This document shows, in pieces, positions 7,901-35,189 of a stretch of 37,003 bases of DNA (within the stretch, counting starts at the first letter, position 1; every line of letters starts with the position of its first letter). The notes under the pieces are model-generated. The model was given only the letters and a program-made list of their open reading frames with translations, did no database searches and was not told the origin of the DNA. This DNA comes from Candidatus Binatota bacterium (GTDB lineage Bacteria; Desulfobacterota; Binatia; UBA1149; CAITLU01), in NCBI GenBank assembly GCA_024276575.1, contig JAJRWY010000044.1, forward strand, positions 1 through 37,003. Reading direction: 5' to 3'. The translations under genes were made by a program, and so were the position numbers.

Positions 7901-8668
7901 TTGCAGCAATCGCGGTTTAGAGAATCAACCGGCCAGAGAAACAGCTTGAACGGGAACGAGACCACAGCCGCTGTGGCAGTCAAGGCCTGCGGTGTCGAGC
8001 GGCGTTTCAGCCACATGAGAGTGCTGCGCGGTCTGGACTTGGAACTCGAACGTGGACGTACGCTCTCCATCTTCGGCTCCAACGGGGCCGGCAAGACCAC
8101 TTTCCTCAACATCCTGGCCGGCTTGCTCCGGCCCGACCGCGGCAGTGTCGAACTCTTCGGAGAAACACTGCCGGGTTCGGCCGAACTGCGACGGCGTATA
8201 GGGGTGGTCGGCCACGAAGCCTTCGTGTACGGGGACATGAGCGCCTACGAGAACCTCGAATACTATTCACGCCTCTACAAAGTGGAGAAGACCGGCCGTG
8301 TGGAAGCGATTCTCGATGAAGTCGGGCTACGGGCGGCCGCGAAACGGCCCGCGCGTACTTACTCCAGGGGTATGCTGCAGCGCCTCGCGCTGGCCAGAGC
8401 GGTGCTCCACGAACCCGAATTACTATTGCTCGACGAACCTTTTACCGGCCTCGATCCCGTCGGCGCGCGGCTGCTTTCCACGCTGATAGGGGGCCTGCAC
8501 GAGCAGGGAGTCACCATCATACTGACCGTCCACGATTTCGAACGCGGCCTCGAAGTAGCCGACGACGTGGTAGTGCTACATCGCGGCCGCGTCGGTTGGC
8601 GCTCGGCGCAAGAGCTTCCCGACACGGCGCAGATGTCGGAGATTTACGAAAGCACGGTCGGCGCTTAG
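7901..8668 (+). CDS. ccmA: Heme ABC exporter ATP-binding protein CcmA
   Basis: IFGSNGAGKTTFLNILAGLLRPDRG (Walker A), YSRGMLQRLALARAVLHEPELLLLDEPFTGLD, immediately upstream of ccmB and ccmC. Start is non-ATG (TTG 7901 or 7946). Confidence 0.85.
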   Translation: MQQSRFRESTGQRNSLNGNETTAAVAVKACGVERRFSHMRVLRGLDLELERGRTLSIFGSNGAGKTTFLNILAGLLRPDRGSVELFGETLPGSAELRRRIGVVGHEAFVYGDMSAYENLEYYSRLYKVEKTGRVEAILDEVGLRAAAKRPARTYSRGMLQRLALARAVLHEPELLLLDEPFTGLDPVGARLLSTLIGGLHEQGVTIILTVHDFERGLEVADDVVVLHRGRVGWRSAQELPDTAQMSEIYESTVGA

Positions 8669-8674
8669 GGACCT

Positions 8675-9334
8675 ATGTTTGCTTTGATATGGAAAGACTT
8701 GATCCTCGAAGCCCGGCGCCGGGAAACCGTAACTTCACTGTTCATCCTCGGAGTCCTCATCCTGCTGGTCTTCAACTTCGCCATCGACATACAAAGCGAC
8801 AACGTCGCGGAGCTGGCGCCGGGATTGCTGTGGGCCTCCATAGTTTTCTCGGCCATGCTGGGACTTAGCCGCACGTTCCTGGTCGAGCGCGAAAACGGCT
8901 GCATGACGGCCTTGCTGATCGCCCCGCTCGACCGCGGCTCCCTCTACATCGCCAAGTTTTCGGTAAACCTACTGCTGATGCTGGTGTTCGAAGCGATGCT
9001 GCTGCCGATTTTCATTCTTTTCTTCGACCTCCCGGTAGCGGGCAAGCTGCTGAACTTGATAGTGGTCATTTTCGCAGGCTCGATCGGGCTGTCTTCAATC
9101 GGTACCCTGTTCGCACTGGCTGCCTTGGGCACCCGTGCGCGCGAGTTGATGCTGCCGCTTATCGTATTGCCGCTACAGGTCCCCTTGCTGATCGCCGCCG
9201 TGAAAGCCACTTCGATGGTGCTCGACGGTGCCTCGTTGGGTGAATTGGGCATTTGGGGGACCATGCTGGCGGCCTTCGGCATCTTGTTCGCCACGGTGGG
9301 TTGGCTTACTTTCGAGTTCATCTCCGTGGATTGA
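8675..9334 (+). CDS. ccmB: Heme exporter protein CcmB
   Basis: KDLILEARRRETVTSLFILGVLILLVFNFA...LERENGCMTALLIAPLDRGSLYIAKF-type permease, multi-TM, between ccmA and ccmC. Confidence 0.87.
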   Translation: MFALIWKDLILEARRRETVTSLFILGVLILLVFNFAIDIQSDNVAELAPGLLWASIVFSAMLGLSRTFLVERENGCMTALLIAPLDRGSLYIAKFSVNLLLMLVFEAMLLPIFILFFDLPVAGKLLNLIVVIFAGSIGLSSIGTLFALAALGTRARELMLPLIVLPLQVPLLIAAVKATSMVLDGASLGELGIWGTMLAAFGILFATVGWLTFEFISVD

Positions 9335-9410
9335 GCGGCGCGAACAGCCCGGCACCGTACGGAGATAACGGCGGTAGACTAATCAGGCGGACCGCCGCAC
9401 ACTGAAGATC

Positions 9411-10130
9411 ATGTTCCGAAAAGCCGAAAACCTCATCCTCAAGCTCTCACCGCCGCTGGTGGCAGTGGCGGTGCTGGTCAGTTCTCTGGCGGTGTTCATG
9501 TGGGTTCCGACCGACAAGGCTCTGGGAATCAGCCAGCGTATCTTTTACTACCATGTGCCCGCAGCCAGCACCTGCTTTGCAGCCTTCATCGGCGCCGGGC
9601 TCGCCAGCGCAATCTTTCTGAAGACGCGCAACGAGCAGTGGGACCACGCCGCCCACGCCGCCGCAGGGGTGGGTATGGTATATGCGACTATCGTACTGAT
9701 CACCGGTTCGATCTGGGCACGCACCGCATGGGGGACTTGGTGGACTTGGGACGCGCGGCTGACGACCTTCCTGATCTTATGGCTGATTTACGCGGTCTAT
9801 CTGCTGCTTCGCGCTTTCTCGCAAGGCAACGAAATGGGGCCCCGCTACGCCGCGGTGCTGGCCATCGCAGGCGCAGTCAACATACCCTTGGTGATGATGG
9901 CCACACGTTTGTGGCGCACCATCCATCCCAAAGTCATCAACAACCCTCAAGGGGGTATTCAAGATCCAAGAATGATCGCCACCTTGGTCCTCAGTATGGT
10001 CGCCCTGTTCACCCTGTTCCTGTGGTTGTGGGCATTGCGCATGCGGATGCTGCGCCTAGGCGACCGTGTCGAATTGTTGCTGGCCGACCACTACCAGTCA
10101 TCTCAAACTTTTTCGCGGAGTAACGGCTAA
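9411..10130 (+). CDS. ccmC: Heme exporter/cytochrome c biogenesis protein CcmC
   Basis: RIFYYHVPAASTCF...SIWARTAWGTWWTWDARLTTFLILWLIYAVYLLLR: tryptophan-rich WGTWWxWD motif. Confidence 0.92.
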   Translation: MFRKAENLILKLSPPLVAVAVLVSSLAVFMWVPTDKALGISQRIFYYHVPAASTCFAAFIGAGLASAIFLKTRNEQWDHAAHAAAGVGMVYATIVLITGSIWARTAWGTWWTWDARLTTFLILWLIYAVYLLLRAFSQGNEMGPRYAAVLAIAGAVNIPLVMMATRLWRTIHPKVINNPQGGIQDPRMIATLVLSMVALFTLFLWLWALRMRMLRLGDRVELLLADHYQSSQTFSRSNG

Positions 10131-27033: not shown

Positions 27034-28120
27034 TCAGGCGCCGGCTTTGGCGTCCCTAAGGGCCTGCTTGAACGCAGCATGGTCCAGCGGCGGAGCCGGG
27101 TAGCCCGGCTTCGCCACCATCGATATACCATCCGTAGGGCAACAGGTGGCGCAAACGCCGCAACCGAAACACCTGTCTCTATCGAGTTCCGGCACATCCT
27201 CCTCGCCCATTTCCAGCGCTTCGGCCGGACAACTGTCAACGCACTCCTCACAGGCCGTACACTCATCGGGATCGATCTTGGGCTCGAAACCCGAGTTCAA
27301 GGCAAGCCCGGGTCGATCTTGAGCAAGCGCGGTTTTGATGATCACACAATGGTCCGCGCAGCAGTTACAGATGAACTCGATGTTCTGGCGATTAACGCTG
27401 CAGTGCACCAAGCCTTCTTCTTCGCAGTCCTTCAGGATTCGCAACGCTTCATCTTTGGAGATTTCACGGCCCATGCCGTGGTCGATGACAAAACGCGCGC
27501 CCTGCCCCAGTTGCATGCACACTTCGTTGGGTTTCCCACAGGTATCCGCAGGATCGATGAGTTGAGCCTCGTGCCGGCAGTAGCAAGTCGAAACCGCGAT
27601 CGGATCCGAATCGCGAACGTAGGCCACGACCTGGTCATAGGTATGAACCGTATTGCCGGTATCGACCTTCTCGTTGACGGTTATGACCCGGGCACCCGGG
27701 AACCTTATCTTGACCACGCCGCGCCGGGCATCGACTGCGTCTTTATAACTGCCGATCAACCTGGCCAGCTTGCGGTCCCTGTCGCTGTCACCGCCACGCA
27801 TGAACTGGAACTCGAAGATCCCGGGGACCAGCGGAGGCAACGCATACACCGACTCTCCGGAACTGCCCGCACATATGCAGAGCCCCTTATCCGCCATGGC
27901 CTCGAGCAAGGATTCTACTTCGCCGAGTTCCCCACCAAGAGCTTCGGCTAGTTGAGCAGCGCTAAACAAGCCCTTGGGCATGGCCGCCGCCGCGCGCGCC
28001 TCATCACGAGTGAACAGTTCTTCGGCCATGGCGTAGAACTCAGGTATATCCATGCCTGAATACACTCCGCCTTGCCTCGAAAACCTTTCCATCAAGGCCG
28101 TATAAATCTGGTCCGCCACT
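27034..28120 (-). CDS. Multi-cysteine 4Fe-4S protein with N-terminal winged-helix-like region and C-terminal 2x[4Fe-4S] ferredoxin
   Basis: GTG start at 28120 (VADQIYTALMERF). STCYCRHEAQL...FICNCCADHCVIIKTAL and CTACEECVDSCPAEALEMGEEDVPELDRDRCFGCGVCATCCP. Confidence 0.82.
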
Positions 28121-29282: not shown

Positions 29283-29324
29283 CATTATTCATGAAACCTC
29301 TGCTACGAGGTTTCATGAATAATG
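29283..29324. repeat. Perfect 18-bp inverted repeat with 6-nt loop
   Basis: cattattcatgaaacctc TGCTAC gaggtttcatgaataatg. The end motif also occurs at 21479-21497 and a diverged form at about 12501-12520. Confidence 0.95.
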
Positions 29325-30064
29325 CCGGTCAACGCAGCTAACGCGGCGTTGCCTTCCGGAAGATCCAGCAACGTGCGGCCGCAGGCGTTGTAATCATGGA
29401 CCTCACTATCGTCGGGAACGAAGGCCGAGACTTCCAAACCCAGGGCCGCGGCAAGATCACCGGCACGGCTTCGATCTTCGTCGCTACGCACTCTGTTCAC
29501 CAGCAAGCGAAGCTCGATGGGCTTCCCCTCGTTATAGCTCACGGCAATGTCTCTGACCTTGGCAACCGATTCCATCGCCCGCCGGGAGGTGTCGGCGACC
29601 AGAATCAGTTCATCAATGCGATGGAGGGCCCGGCGGTTCACCTGTTCAATCCCGGCCTCACAGTCCACCAGCACCGTGTCGTAGTCCGAGCACAGCGATT
29701 CCACCCCAAAACGGAGCAGTTCGTTGACTCCGCAGAAACAGCCCTTGCCTTCCGCACGCCCCATGGCAAGTAGGTCATAGCCCCTACTGCTTACGGTGAT
29801 CAGTTCTTTGATCGCATCCTTGACCGGCCTCGCTTCGAGATCACGCTGACGCCGCGGTGATTCGATCAGCGACTGGCGAAAATCCCCCAGTGTTGCCGAC
29901 GGCTCCTCGCCCAGAGTGTAGGCCACACTTATTACCGGGTCCGCGTCGATGAGCAGCAATCGCGTGCCGCTGGCGAGCAACAGCTTGACCAGCATCGCCG
30001 ACACCGAAGTCTTGCCGACGCCGCCTTTTCCACCGACCGTAATTATGTGTGCCTGAGTGCTCAT
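29303..30064 (-). CDS. CooC-type (MinD/Mrp superfamily) P-loop metallocluster ATPase
   Basis: MSTQAHIITVGGKGGVGKTSVSAMLVKLLLASGTRLLLIDADP, then LLAMGRAEGKGCFCGVNELLRFGVE (CxC in CooC-like context), DCEAGIEQVNRRALHRIDELILVAD. Confidence 0.85.
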   Translation of the reverse strand: MSTQAHIITVGGKGGVGKTSVSAMLVKLLLASGTRLLLIDADPVISVAYTLGEEPSATLGDFRQSLIESPRRQRDLEARPVKDAIKELITVSSRGYDLLAMGRAEGKGCFCGVNELLRFGVESLCSDYDTVLVDCEAGIEQVNRRALHRIDELILVADTSRRAMESVAKVRDIAVSYNEGKPIELRLLVNRVRSDEDRSRAGDLAAALGLEVSAFVPDDSEVHDYNACGRTLLDLPEGNAALAALTGIIHETS

Positions 30065-30071
30065 AGCACGC

Positions 30072-30881
30072 TCAAGAGGCCGCTGTCGCCGTCTCGTTAA
30101 CGGCACGCGCACGCCGCTCACGAGCGAACAAAGCAGCCCCCAGCGCTCCGACTATTTGCGGATCGATCCCCAGCGAGCACATTTCATGTCCGACTATTTT
30201 CTCGCAGGCCTTGACCACGGCCTGATTCTTGGCAACGCCGCCGGTGATGCAAACCTCGGACTCGACGCCGACCCTCTTTACCAAGCGATTGACCCGCACG
30301 GCGAGTGCTTCGGCCACACCGAAACAAATGTCCTCGCGGCTTCTACCGTCGGCCAGGAAAGTCATCACATCGAATTGGGTGAACACGGTGCAGATACTCG
30401 TGATCGCGACCGGGTCCACACCCTTCAACGCCAAGGCGCCGAGATCGGAAACATGAAGGCCCAGCGTCTTGGCGACGCCCTCCAGGAAACGCCCGGTTCC
30501 GGCCGCGCATTTATCGTTCATCACGAAGTCTTTGAGATCTCCTTCGCTGTCGATACGGATGACCTTACAGTCCTGGCCGCCCACGTCGATGATGGTCCGT
30601 ATCCCGGGATTGGCCCAGAATGCCCCCTTACCGTGGCATGAAATCTCGGAAATATCGTGTTGCGCAAACTCGATTCTTTCGCGCCCGTAGCCGGTACTGA
30701 CACAGTAGTCGATATCCTCGTAGTCCAGGCCGCTTTCGCGCAAAACGGTATCCATTACAGTGGCCGCCGAAAGCACCGGATTGGGAGTCACCACGATGAC
30801 TGAAGATGCGCGAATCCCGTCGTCGTCGAGCAATACCGCCTCGGCGGTCATCGAACCAACGTCTACACCTGCAAATATCAT
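30072..30881 (-). CDS. BadF/BcrA-type CoA-enzyme activase ATPase (BcrA-like)
   Basis: MIFAGVDVGSMTAEAVL, IIDVGGQDCKVIRID, FVMNDKCAAGTGRFLEGVAKTLG, ITSICTVFTQFDVMTFLADG, CITGGVAKNQAVV; conserved Cys residues for an interface [4Fe-4S] cluster. Confidence 0.88.
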   Translation of the reverse strand: MIFAGVDVGSMTAEAVLLDDDGIRASSVIVVTPNPVLSAATVMDTVLRESGLDYEDIDYCVSTGYGRERIEFAQHDISEISCHGKGAFWANPGIRTIIDVGGQDCKVIRIDSEGDLKDFVMNDKCAAGTGRFLEGVAKTLGLHVSDLGALALKGVDPVAITSICTVFTQFDVMTFLADGRSREDICFGVAEALAVRVNRLVKRVGVESEVCITGGVAKNQAVVKACEKIVGHEMCSLGIDPQIVGALGAALFARERRARAVNETATAAS

Positions 30882-31648
30882 AGCGCCGCCTCCACACTCA
30901 GAGCTGCGCCTATCGCTCCCATCAGATCCGGCCCGGCGCCGAACACCTGCACCGGCTTGCCGGTGACGGCCTCGATGCCGCCGACGATTCTCGAATTGTT
31001 CGCCAAGCCGCCGCCCACCAATACCGGACCACGCGTCTTCACCTTCTTGCACAGGGTTCCGACAGTCTTGGTAAGAGCTTCGAAGATCGCCTCGGTGATG
31101 TTGGCGACCGACTCACCGGCGTTGATCAAACTGACCACGTCGCTTTCGTAAAACACCGCACACTGGCCGCTCAGCGTAATCTTCTTGTCGGCGGCTTCGG
31201 CGATCGCCACGCTCTCTTCAACGCTGATATCCAAAGCTTCGAAAATGATCTCCAGGAACTTCCCGCAGCCCGACGCGCATTTGTCGTTCATGCGGTACTC
31301 CATCACACGGCCCTTGTCGTTGAGGCTCAACACCACGCTGTTCTGCGCCCCCAAACACAGTACGCAACGGCAAGGTGGATCGTTCCACAGCGAAGCGCGG
31401 GCCAGTGAGTTCAACACGCTGAACGAAGCGTGCGGCATGGACACCCGGCTCTCGCCCCACCCGGTCACAACGGTTTCGTCGAAATCGAGGCTGTCAAGCT
31501 TGCTCTGTTCGCGTAGCCCGTCGAGCACCGCCCGCATCGCTTTGTCCGGATTGGCCTCGGTGGGGACTCGTATCGAATCTACCAACTCGCCTCCGTCGAG
31601 TACTGCGCCCTTGGTGAAGGAAGTGCCTATGTCACAGCCAAGTATCAT
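30878..31648 (-). CDS. Second BadF/BcrD-type activase ATPase (BcrD-like)
   Basis: MILGCDIGTSFTKGAVL, LCLGAQNSVVLSLNDKGRVMEYRMNDKCASGCGKFLEIIFEALD, LSGQCAVFYESDVVSLINAGESVANI; lacks GGQD. ATGA overlap with the next gene. Confidence 0.85.
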   Translation of the reverse strand: MILGCDIGTSFTKGAVLDGGELVDSIRVPTEANPDKAMRAVLDGLREQSKLDSLDFDETVVTGWGESRVSMPHASFSVLNSLARASLWNDPPCRCVLCLGAQNSVVLSLNDKGRVMEYRMNDKCASGCGKFLEIIFEALDISVEESVAIAEAADKKITLSGQCAVFYESDVVSLINAGESVANITEAIFEALTKTVGTLCKKVKTRGPVLVGGGLANNSRIVGGIEAVTGKPVQVFGAGPDLMGAIGAALSVEAAL

Positions 31649-31685: not shown

Positions 31686-33095
31686 CTAGATAAGCGTTTC
31701 GAAAAACTCGGCGAGTTGCGCCTTGGCCGAAGCGTGAGGTGTAAAGCGCGTGTCGAGCAGATCGGTTTCCCATTTGAAACTGGGGATGCCGGCTTGCTCC
31801 TGCAAGGCGTCTCCCAGCATCTTCGCAACCGCCCAACTATGCTTACAAGCCATGTGCCCCGAAAACACAGCGGCATCGGCGTGGTAGCTCTTCGCGATGC
31901 CCACGAAATCCTCGATCATGACATCGGCATGGGTCATACCGGTTCTTCCCATCGGCATGTGGAAAGAACGCCATGCCAAGCCCTCTATCATCGAGTCTAT
32001 GGAAGAAGTATCAACGTAACCCACAATATCGGCCGGAAGGAACGACAGCCCGCACTCGAGGAAACTCATTCCATAGTTGTCTTCGAGCCAGTCGGGAAGA
32101 TAGATCATGTGCGGGGTCAGACCCCAAGTCCAAACCGTGCGAATCTCTTTCTTGCCGGCGGGAAGGATGCTTTCACCGCGCTCGGCGCGGCCCTGGGCTT
32201 CTTCGAAGCAGATCTTCGTATACTCGACCATCTCGCGGTTGACACCCGACAGATACAGCGCCGCCACGTCCAGCGCGCGATGCATCCCGGGATCCGGATT
32301 GGGCACCTGCCTTCGCAACTCTTGTAGCCTGTAGAGATAGCTCAACTGTTCGTTGCCCAGTTCGACATGATGGCGAAGCAGGCCTTCGTCGAGAGTTCTG
32401 CCGGTGGTCTTCTCGACCTGCTTCACCATGTTCTTCCACTCCTCGAGATAGTAGTCGAAGGCACGGCGGTTCGCGTAGTAGGGGCTGTCGAGCAGTATCA
32501 ACTCGCCGCCATACTCCTGCTGAGCCCACTGGTACATCATGTTGCTCGAATTGCAGGGTACCGTACTCTTTACCAGCAGATCGGGAAGCGGCATCTTGCC
32601 GGACTTGATCGCGCCGTTGGGCGCTTTCTGAGCAGAACATATGTGGCCGGGCAGGCCTTCGTCCTCGGTGGTGTCGATGTCGTCATCCACACCACCGACG
32701 AAAGTTGCGGCAATATATATCGGTAGCAGTTCGTAACACACCGGGATCATATCCATACCGAGGAAAATCTCCGGCGTCGTTACCGCAAAGTTGTAGATCA
32801 CCGGCTGCCCTTCATCGATGCGGGAAGCCAGATCGCCCACGAAGCGCTTTACCGCCGACATGTGGGCGACAATCGTGTTTTTGTTCTTCGGCTTGAGGAT
32901 GGACTCGATCACCTCCGGGTGGATCTGCGGCACCAGCGATGCGTGATACTCGGGAAGAACTTGCATCAGCATGGGGATGTCGAGTTCGCCGGGGCTATTG
33001 GCGCCCGTGGCGATCGCCATCTGGAACAGATCGCAGACGGCGTCGACCTTGCGGAAATACTCGTACTTGGCCATGGAACTCTCTTGATCTGCCAT
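31686..33095 (-). CDS. 2-hydroxyacyl-CoA dehydratase / benzoyl-CoA reductase BcrB-like subunit
   Basis: PVIYNFAVTTPEIFLGMDMIPVCYELLP...DEGLPGHICSAQKAPNGAIKSGKMPLPDLLVKSTVPCNSSNMMYQW...AAVFSGHMACKHSWAVAKMLGDAL. Confidence 0.88.
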   Translation of the reverse strand: MADQESSMAKYEYFRKVDAVCDLFQMAIATGANSPGELDIPMLMQVLPEYHASLVPQIHPEVIESILKPKNKNTIVAHMSAVKRFVGDLASRIDEGQPVIYNFAVTTPEIFLGMDMIPVCYELLPIYIAATFVGGVDDDIDTTEDEGLPGHICSAQKAPNGAIKSGKMPLPDLLVKSTVPCNSSNMMYQWAQQEYGGELILLDSPYYANRRAFDYYLEEWKNMVKQVEKTTGRTLDEGLLRHHVELGNEQLSYLYRLQELRRQVPNPDPGMHRALDVAALYLSGVNREMVEYTKICFEEAQGRAERGESILPAGKKEIRTVWTWGLTPHMIYLPDWLEDNYGMSFLECGLSFLPADIVGYVDTSSIDSMIEGLAWRSFHMPMGRTGMTHADVMIEDFVGIAKSYHADAAVFSGHMACKHSWAVAKMLGDALQEQAGIPSFKWETDLLDTRFTPHASAKAQLAEFFETLI

Positions 33096-33112: not shown

Positions 33113-34348
33113 TTACTTGCCTATCTTTTCGAGGAAGGCCTGCACTCTGGTCTTGATACGGCCTTCGTCGGTTGCAACGTATTCGCTTTCGAGGTTGAGA
33201 GTCGCGAAACCGAGCTTTTCCAACTCGCGACCTTCCATGGTGTTCTCGACCGCGTGATTGTCGCAGAAGGGGAGGCGGTGAAAGATGATCCCGTCTACCG
33301 ACGCTTCCTCGGCAATGCGGCGGGTAAAGTCGAGCCGGGAGGCGAACTGCCCCATCATCCGCGGGCAAGCGATATGCTTGAAATATCTATCGGCCAGGGC
33401 CTCCATGGGGTCGCCTTCTTCATCCACCATCGAGTCCACATACTTGCGGCCCGAACACAGCGTGTCGCTCACCACTAGCGCCCCTGTGCTTTCGATGATG
33501 TCGATCAAAAAAGTGTCGTCCAGATAGCTGCCTCCTATCATGATGCGCGCGCGGCAATCATCGAGAGCAGGACGCGAAGACAACTCCGAGATGGCCTGCT
33601 CGAGTTTCTCGTTGAACAACTCTTTGGGCATGTTGAAACCGGCGCGGGCAATGCGCATGGCTTCGGAGCCGCTAAGCTTGGGGTGGGCGCAACTGCGGAG
33701 AGTGTATAGCTCGAGCATCAGCTTCCGGTAGCGATTATAGACCGCAATCGATTCCCGGAGGCGTTGGCTGGACGGATAGCTACCGTACTTCTCGGCAATG
33801 GATTCGCCCATTCTGCGAACTTCTTCCAAGTACCAGGCGAAACGATGCTCGCCCTCGATGGAATGAGGAACGCTCAACATGGTGAGAAAGTCCATGCCTA
33901 CTTCGTCGCGCCAATATTCGTAGGTTCTGCGCATTTGATCGCAGGCATCGGTAATCACCATACCGTCGAGAAATTCGAACTCTCCCTCGATCCCGAGCTG
34001 CAGCAGACAGCGTGTAAAGCTGCATATGTACTTGTGCAGGTAGATATCGGCGTCTTCCGTACCACTGCAGCCCACCGCTCCCATCCTCACCGGCAAGATC
34101 TTGCAGGGCTGGGCGTGGAGCAGTTCTTCGGGCATGTAGCTGCAGGTATAACCGATTACTTTGCCGCCCATGCTCTTCCAATCCTCGATGTAGGGATTGT
34201 CTCCGCGCAGAGCCAAGCCGGCTAGCTCTTCCACCGCGCCGGTGGGTGCTTTGCCGCAATCGCCGCTTTGAGTACTGCCTACCGTAGCGCCTGACGTGCA
34301 GACTGCGTTGCCGGCATCTTCAGCAACTGGGGTTCCATCGATGTTCAT
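33113..34348 (-). CDS. 2-hydroxyacyl-CoA dehydratase / benzoyl-CoA reductase BcrC-like subunit
   Basis: GGKVIGYTCSYMPEELLHAQPCKILPVRMGAVGCSGTEDADIYLHKYICSFTRCLLQLG...IMIGGSYLDDTFLIDIIESTGALVVSDTLCSGRKY...DGIIFHRLPFCDNHAVENTMEGRELEKLGFATLNLESEY. Confidence 0.88.
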   Translation of the reverse strand: MNIDGTPVAEDAGNAVCTSGATVGSTQSGDCGKAPTGAVEELAGLALRGDNPYIEDWKSMGGKVIGYTCSYMPEELLHAQPCKILPVRMGAVGCSGTEDADIYLHKYICSFTRCLLQLGIEGEFEFLDGMVITDACDQMRRTYEYWRDEVGMDFLTMLSVPHSIEGEHRFAWYLEEVRRMGESIAEKYGSYPSSQRLRESIAVYNRYRKLMLELYTLRSCAHPKLSGSEAMRIARAGFNMPKELFNEKLEQAISELSSRPALDDCRARIMIGGSYLDDTFLIDIIESTGALVVSDTLCSGRKYVDSMVDEEGDPMEALADRYFKHIACPRMMGQFASRLDFTRRIAEEASVDGIIFHRLPFCDNHAVENTMEGRELEKLGFATLNLESEYVATDEGRIKTRVQAFLEKIGK

Positions 34349-34370: not shown

Positions 34371-35189
34371 CTATTGGGCAGTGAGCCCGCCGTCTACGAG
34401 ATACTCGGCGCCGGTGATGAATCCTGCGGCATCGGAAGCCAGGAACACTATGGTCCGGGCAACGTCGGCGGGCTGGCCGAGGCGTCCGAGCGGGTGCATG
34501 GCGGCCAGCATCGCATCGCCTTCGGCTTCGTTCGCGGCCGACCCTGCAGCCTGAAGCTCGCGCGAAAGACTATCGGCCATGGCGGTTTCTATAACCCCGG
34601 GGTGCACGGAGTTTACTCTGATCCCCAATCCTGCGGCGGCGCACTCGAGCGCGGCTGCTTTGGTGAACAAACGTACCGCGCCTTTGGAAGCTACATAAGC
34701 GCTCAAACCCGGCGAGCCGACGAAACCGGCCACCGAAGAAAGGTTGATGATGGAGCCGCCTTGGCCGCAAAGCCCGCCTGGCATCATGGCCTTGATCGCG
34801 TACTTCGCACCGAGAAAAACTCCGTCCACGTTGACGGATTGGAGTCCCCGCCACTGTTCGAGGCTGGTTTCGACGATCGGCTTCATGAACTCCACGCCCG
34901 CGTTATTGACCAACACGTGCAGGCCACCTAGCCGCTCCACGGTGGCGCCGACGGCGGCTTCCCACTGCGTCTCGTCGGTCACGTCCAGCGATAGGCAATC
35001 GGCTTGTCCTCCGGCCTCACGGATCTTGGCCGCGACCTCTTGGCCACCTTCGTCTCTGATGTCGCTGAGCATCACCTTTGCGCCTGCTTGCGCCAGCGCC
35101 TGCGCCGTAGCCGCGCCGATGCCGCGGGAGGCGCCGCTAACCAGAGCAACTTTTCCGTCAAGACCGAATGCTGCATCCATCGTGCTCAC
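34371..35189 (-). CDS. SDR-family oxidoreductase, first gene of the Bcr-like operon
   Basis: LDGKVALVSGASRGIGAATAQALAQAGAKVMLSDIRDEGG...LVNNAGVEFMKP...YVASKGAVRLFTKAAALE...GAEYLVDGGLTAQ. Confidence 0.92.
   Translation of the reverse strand: MSTMDAAFGLDGKVALVSGASRGIGAATAQALAQAGAKVMLSDIRDEGGQEVAAKIREAGGQADCLSLDVTDETQWEAAVGATVERLGGLHVLVNNAGVEFMKPIVETSLEQWRGLQSVNVDGVFLGAKYAIKAMMPGGLCGQGGSIINLSSVAGFVGSPGLSAYVASKGAVRLFTKAAALECAAAGLGIRVNSVHPGVIETAMADSLSRELQAAGSAANEAEGDAMLAAMHPLGRLGQPADVARTIVFLASDAAGFITGAEYLVDGGLTAQ

Follow-up and report, generated by a model that had tools for sequence, protein, structure and literature searches.

The best reading of the operon studied here, judged from its sequence, is that its two unequal activases form a heterodimeric activator for a double-cubane reductase, which would resemble the BZD type in its working and is not of the BcrA/BcrD type. 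As a whole explanation, we consider it probable, though well short of certain, that this ATP-driven P0001-P0002 activator charges the double-cubane cluster of P0004 for the reduction of an acyl-CoA by P0003. The operon lies on the minus strand of the window (i.e., the whole stretch of 37,003 nucleotides that was analysed), with the gene order SDR, P0004, P0003, P0002, P0001, P0005. The relevant features are:

27034 to 28119, minus strand: P0006, a two-cluster ferredoxin-like protein with an uncertain start codon; candidate electron donor.
29303 to 30064, minus strand: P0005, a P-loop ATPase resembling CooC and MinD, in which a GC(F/Y)C motif is conserved; it closes the operon in family f1.
30072 to 30881, minus strand: P0001, an activase subunit of 269 aa with an intact phosphate-2 motif (D99-VGGQD104) and Glu14 replacing the phosphate-1 Lys; Cys125 and Cys164 are the cluster ligands predicted from the alignment.
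30878 to 30881, minus strand: ATGA overlap of 4 bases between the P0002 stop and the P0001 start, conserved in five loci.
30878 to 31648, minus strand: P0002, a degenerate activase subunit of 256 aa that keeps Lys13 and has Cys98 replacing the phosphate-2 Asp; in the alignment GGQD has become GAQN and TGYGR has become TGWGE; Cys124 and Cys163 are the predicted cluster ligands, and the extra Cys128 is not conserved.
31686 to 33095, minus strand: P0003, an HGD-D subunit that profile, alignment and predicted fold place in the catalytic position (that of HadB, BzdO and MbdO).
33113 to 34348, minus strand: P0004, an HGD-D subunit resembling BzdN and DCCP, for which six double-cubane ligands are predicted.
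34371 to 35189, minus strand: P0007, an SDR dehydrogenase by profile matches; it opens the operon.

Next to the operon, no genes of a benzoyl-CoA pathway were recognised. Elsewhere in the window, a cytochrome c maturation-type trio (ABC ATPase, CcmB and cytochrome c assembly protein) occupies positions 7901-10127.

The first-pass annotation had described two non-identical activases, and these are indeed real frames, arranged head to tail, that both pass the curated cut-offs of PF01869 (E 2.6e-60 for P0001 and 1.2e-32 for P0002) and TIGR00241. The motifs it had listed are present as well: GGQD, CAAGTGRFLE and the second Cys in ICTVF for P0001, and LGAQNS, CASGCGKFLE and the second Cys in QCAVF for P0002. 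Alignment of 46 activases, later extended to 60, revealed that both predicted cluster cysteines are kept in all five orthologs of either protein. The additional Cys of CASGCGKFLE, to which attention had also been drawn, occurs only in the three f1 orthologs, whereas CASGAGMF is found in both f18 orthologs; as these have Ala at this position, the idea that Cys128 is a fifth cluster ligand was rejected as a general feature. The alignment further brought out the substitutions Glu14 in P0001 and Cys98 and TGWGE in P0002, which the first-pass annotation had not noted. Almost all aligned activases retain the phosphate-1 motif DxGSxxxK, whereas the sequence is DVGSM(T/S)AE in P0001 and each of its four orthologs. 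The phosphate-2 motif of the five P0002 orthologs reads C-L-GAQN (twice), S-L-GAQN, C-M-GTQQ and C-L-GTQQ, so that the position of the Asp is taken by Cys or Ser in every one of them. By analogy with actin-like ATPases, the phosphate-1 lysine contacts the phosphates, while the phosphate-2 aspartate takes part in the handling of metal and water. P0002 may still bind a nucleotide but, having lost this Asp, is probably a slow or dead ATPase. P0001 is probably the ATP-hydrolysing subunit, although, because it lacks the phosphate-1 Lys, sequence does not settle which ATP site works. Despite its degeneration, P0002 is predicted to adopt a complete activase fold (AF2 model, pLDDT 90; TM 0.90 to HadI and 0.91 to MbdP/MbdQ), and its best sequence match is HadI, an activase of the homodimer type. 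The short length of both proteins, which had been remarked on as well, is evidence neither way: HgdC, HadI, MbdP and MbdQ, with 269-276 aa, are equally short.

The search for orthologs covered 148 genomes of the same class and a set of 395 from the phylum. P0002 was found in two further genomes of the family of the window, f1 (G001 and G005, one of which is a public groundwater MAG labelled Deltaproteobacteria), and in G187 and G222, two of the three genomes that represent a different class of the phylum (f18). In all five genomes, window included, the order P0004-P0003-P0002-P0001 is kept, P0005 follows P0001 in the three f1 copies, and an SDR gene stands before P0004 wherever the contig reaches far enough, as in the window and both f18 genomes. 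No P0002 without an adjoining P0001 was encountered in the genomes searched, and the ATGA overlap is preserved in all four orthologous loci looked at. P0001 and P0002 are thus probably translationally coupled, and belong with the two HGD-D subunits to one conserved operon. Both are under purifying selection: dN/dS is 0.09 for P0001 and 0.22 for P0002 against the nearest ortholog measured, values that are rough because dS is large (and near saturation for the more distant orthologs). It might be argued that P0002 is a regulator or assembly factor outside the activator, and that P0001 works as a homodimer, since P0002 has lost both the phosphate-2 Asp and TGYGR and the activases of the C121 type, which are near P0001 in the tree, stand alone. 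The genome of the window itself contains, as its third activase, such a single one; its operon, on C121, also encodes a separate six-cysteine subunit and a CdhC-like and a CooC-like protein. However, the cluster cysteines of P0002 and their flanking motifs are conserved in five out of five orthologs, and a parallel loss is seen in BzdP, an accepted activator subunit, which makes a role outside the activator improbable. Homodimers of P0001 and of P0002 are nevertheless possible.

The assignment of the pair to the BcrA/BcrD type, as first proposed, did not survive phylogenetic analysis. In trees calculated with LG+C20 models the five P0001 and the five P0002 sequences form two separate clades. 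The AU test rejected grouping of P0001 with the BcrA/MbdQ type (p 0.007), of P0002 with the BcrD/MbdP type (p 0.0027) and of all four groups together (p 0.022); in these tests the Bcr types were represented by the solved MbdP and MbdQ and by relatives of the same class whose matches to the Bcr models lie below cut-off, rather than by BcrA and BcrD of Thauera themselves. A sister arrangement of P0001 and P0002 was not rejected (p 0.24). P0001 scores 168 bits against the BcrA model TIGR02259 (cut-off 578) and P0002 105 bits against the BcrD model TIGR02261 (cut-off 312.85), although BcrA/BcrD-like controls of the class also remain below these cut-offs; among the activase and subunit models only the generic activase model was passed. 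A genuine activator of a class I benzoyl-CoA reductase, either of the BcrA/BcrD (Thauera) or of the MbdQ/MbdP type, would share with the window pair the presence of two unequal activases, one of them without a full GGQD, and there is some profile similarity. The earlier statement on the absence of GGQD from BcrD holds approximately for proteins of the BcrD/MbdP type, as the D/P subunit has GAQS or GGQT and thus also misses the final Asp. However, proteins of these types have intact lysines and, unlike P0002, the D/P subunit still has the phosphate-2 Asp. Moreover, the small subunit of BcrABCD and MbdONQP has three cluster cysteines, P0004 has six, and in the small-subunit tree P0004 and BcrC/MbdN lie on opposite sides. 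With the trees and these cysteines in agreement, BcrA/BcrD identity was rejected and seems highly improbable for this pair.

The closest working likeness of the pair is instead BzdP/BzdQ. The cut-off of the BzdQ model is exceeded in 51 of the 395 genomes of the phylum. All 14 BzdQ sequences compared have Glu or Gln in place of the phosphate-1 lysine and an intact GGQD, and all 14 neighbouring BzdP proteins keep Lys or Arg and read GAEE at the GGQD position. On the evidence of these motifs, the window pair displays the BZD kind of division of the ATP site between subunits: as in BzdNOPQ of Aromatoleum sp. CIB (PMC11971306), the lysine is lost in one activase and GGQD in the other. The six-cysteine double-cubane small subunit and the four-gene order (small, large, P-like, Q-like) are also shared. 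There are differences, however: BzdP keeps an acidic phosphate-2 residue (D or E) whereas P0002 has lost it, P0003 is weakly related to BzdO and has Ser at BzdO His131, and the window operon has additional SDR and CooC-like genes. Could P0001 and P0002 have descended from BzdQ and BzdP, the operon being a divergent BZD-type reductase? Apart from the same split of motif losses, P0004 is nearest to BzdN, and the best score of P0001 among the subunit models is that against BzdQ, but with 203.6 bits it misses the cut-off of 380.2. In a tree extended with BzdP and BzdQ, the window pair, the f46 pairs and the single activases of the C121 type are joined on one side of a branch supported by 98/95. 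Grouping of P0001 with BzdQ alone was weakly rejected (p 0.038), whereas P0001 with BzdQ and two neighbours (p 0.255) and P0002 with BzdP (p 0.158) were not; P0002 sits on a long branch and its placement is uncertain. Furthermore, P0003 is not recognisably a BzdO (22.6 bits against a cut-off of 448.6). We therefore regard descent from BzdPQ as rather unlikely, although it deserves more weight than the BcrA/BcrD assignment; going by the trees, the lineage of the pair may be separate from BzdPQ or may share its ancestry. In the literature searched, no paper was found on such an operon type or on the split of lysine and GGQD.

The reading as a reductase is, on sequence grounds, backed more strongly by P0004 than by the activases. 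Among solved chains BzdN is the closest to it (E 1.9e-50; HadC 6.9e-31, MbdN 3e-29), and Cys69, 109, 136, 298, 328 and 362 align with all six cluster cysteines of BzdN and DCCP. These six are also found in the P0004 orthologs, the C121, C54 and C133 paralogs and the f46 proteins, whereas MbdN and BcrC-type proteins have three and HadC has four; the small-subunit tree places P0004 on the BzdN/DCCP side, apart from BcrC/MbdN (98/98). The [8Fe-9S] cluster of BzdN is ligated by six cysteine thiolates, and HAD enzymes are without this cluster (PMC11971306). The six-cysteine double-cubane signature of P0004 thus speaks for a reductase rather than for a simple 2-hydroxyacyl-CoA dehydratase. The original argument had run from the two activases to a reductase; its conclusion is favoured by P0004, but the step itself is weak, as the single-activase C121 operon of the same genome also has a six-cysteine partner. 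DCCP with DCCP-R and YjiM/YjiL likewise share the six double-cubane cysteines with P0004, but combine a single activase with only one type of catalytic subunit.

P0003 resembles BzdO, MbdO, HadB and DCCP about equally in profile and predicted fold, and its Cys154, Cys182 and Cys418 (in a numbering that includes one residue before Met) correspond in the alignment to the three [4Fe-4S] ligands of BzdO. The Ser at the position of BzdO His131 means that benzoyl-CoA chemistry is not implied, but this His is not diagnostic as a test of benzoyl-CoA use, since MbdO also lacks it at the aligned place. The catalytic-position subunits on contigs C121 and C54 of the same genome (L012:2881-4188 and L013:7509-8807) have His at the third [4Fe-4S] cysteine (PGHMGHKDG versus SGHMACKHS), possibly a His-ligated cluster.

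An ordinary ATP-dependent 2-hydroxyacyl-CoA dehydratase whose activator was duplicated by chance would belong to the same superfamily. The enzymes with HgdC/HadI activators share with the window the fold of P0002 and P0003 and the canonical GGQD of P0001; the best fold match of P0003 is HadB, P0002 matches the homodimer-type HadI best, and a hydroxyacid dehydrogenase is a possible identity of the SDR. These dehydratases, however, lack a double-cubane cluster (four cysteines in HadC, six in P0004) and, to our knowledge, have one homodimeric activator, whereas the window has two adjoining, unequal and conserved activases, of which P0002 is divergent yet under purifying selection. A dehydratase with a fortuitous second activase thus appears improbable.

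The nearest tree neighbours of P0001 and P0004 are found in operons of the f46/C121 type, which comprise one or more activases, a six-Cys HGD-D, a further HGD-D and CdhC-like and CooC-like genes. They share the CooC-like gene with the window, but their activases keep all motifs and the window operon has no CdhC-like gene. In two activase operons the short CdhC-like protein (acetyl-CoA synthase beta) adjoins the CooC-like ATPase (L012:4188-5030 and L061:1411-2142). The GC(F/Y)C motif of P0005 is common to its CooC-like relatives. The CooC-like gene might be taken to indicate a CO dehydrogenase; we rejected this because G005 carries the operon and no CODH/prismane match was found in its genome, which suggests that there the CooC-like protein may serve this enzyme; in the genome of the window the sole CODH/prismane match is one homologue of 468 aa. 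A weak homologue of P0006 directly follows P0001 in G222.

The observed gene set, motifs, conserved cysteines and tree position, together with the predicted folds, are consistent with the following mechanism of the proposed heterodimeric activator. P0001 and P0002 would form a heterodimer around a shared [4Fe-4S] cluster, to which each contributes two cysteines. Reduced ferredoxin, perhaps P0006, would charge this cluster, upon which binding and hydrolysis of ATP would open the dimer and lower the potential. The electron would then pass to the double-cubane [8Fe-9S] cluster of P0004, serving as an electron store for P0003, at whose single [4Fe-4S] site an acyl-CoA would be reduced rather than dehydrated. 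A step next to this one, on the same acyl-CoA, is probably the task of the SDR, and P0005 probably helps in building a cluster. The pair bears on how ATP hydrolysis yields an electron of very low potential, and on why some activators are heterodimers, with one ATP per electron. As a different part of the ATP site is missing in each half of the pair, the division of labour is open to analysis with point mutants. In addition, the operon suggests that uncultured deltaproteobacteria possess a double-cubane reductase that is so far uncharacterised.

We tentatively suggest, as a speculation that may well prove wrong, that heterodimeric activators arose more than once in this superfamily (in the lineage of the window, in BzdPQ and possibly in a pair on a Rhizobium plasmid), each time by splitting the ATP machinery, so that one subunit lost the phosphate-1 lysine or stayed normal while the other lost the phosphate-2 motif. 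P0002 would then be a pseudo-ATPase, one ATP would be spent per electron, and the double-cubane reductase would act on a new substrate class.

Several other loci deserve mention. The plasmid of Rhizobium leguminosarum (NZ_CP030763.1; L056:6147-7873), a nominally aerobic soil bacterium, carries an adjacent activase pair beside two HGD-D genes, and one of the pair is degenerate, with VLYIGADSS at phosphate-2 and no TGYGR. Plasmids of Azoarcus KH32C, Sphingopyxis, Rhodococcus ruber and Rhodobacteraceae QY30 (L055, L057, L058 and L067), largely aerobic genera among them, bear an activase with two HGD-D genes, the small subunit having 4/6 cysteines; those that are annotated have SDR, CaiB, acyl-CoA dehydrogenase or thiolase genes nearby. 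On a plasmid of Azoarcus KH32C an activase gene is followed by a fused activase-dehydratase gene (L070:7003-9962). Finally, a glycyl radical enzyme of 952 aa (PFL-like plus Gly_radical) is encoded downstream of one orthologous operon (L045:9140-11998), and a frame of 993 aa at L036:5511-8492, with a radical SAM gene nearby, is by its N-terminus its apparent counterpart.
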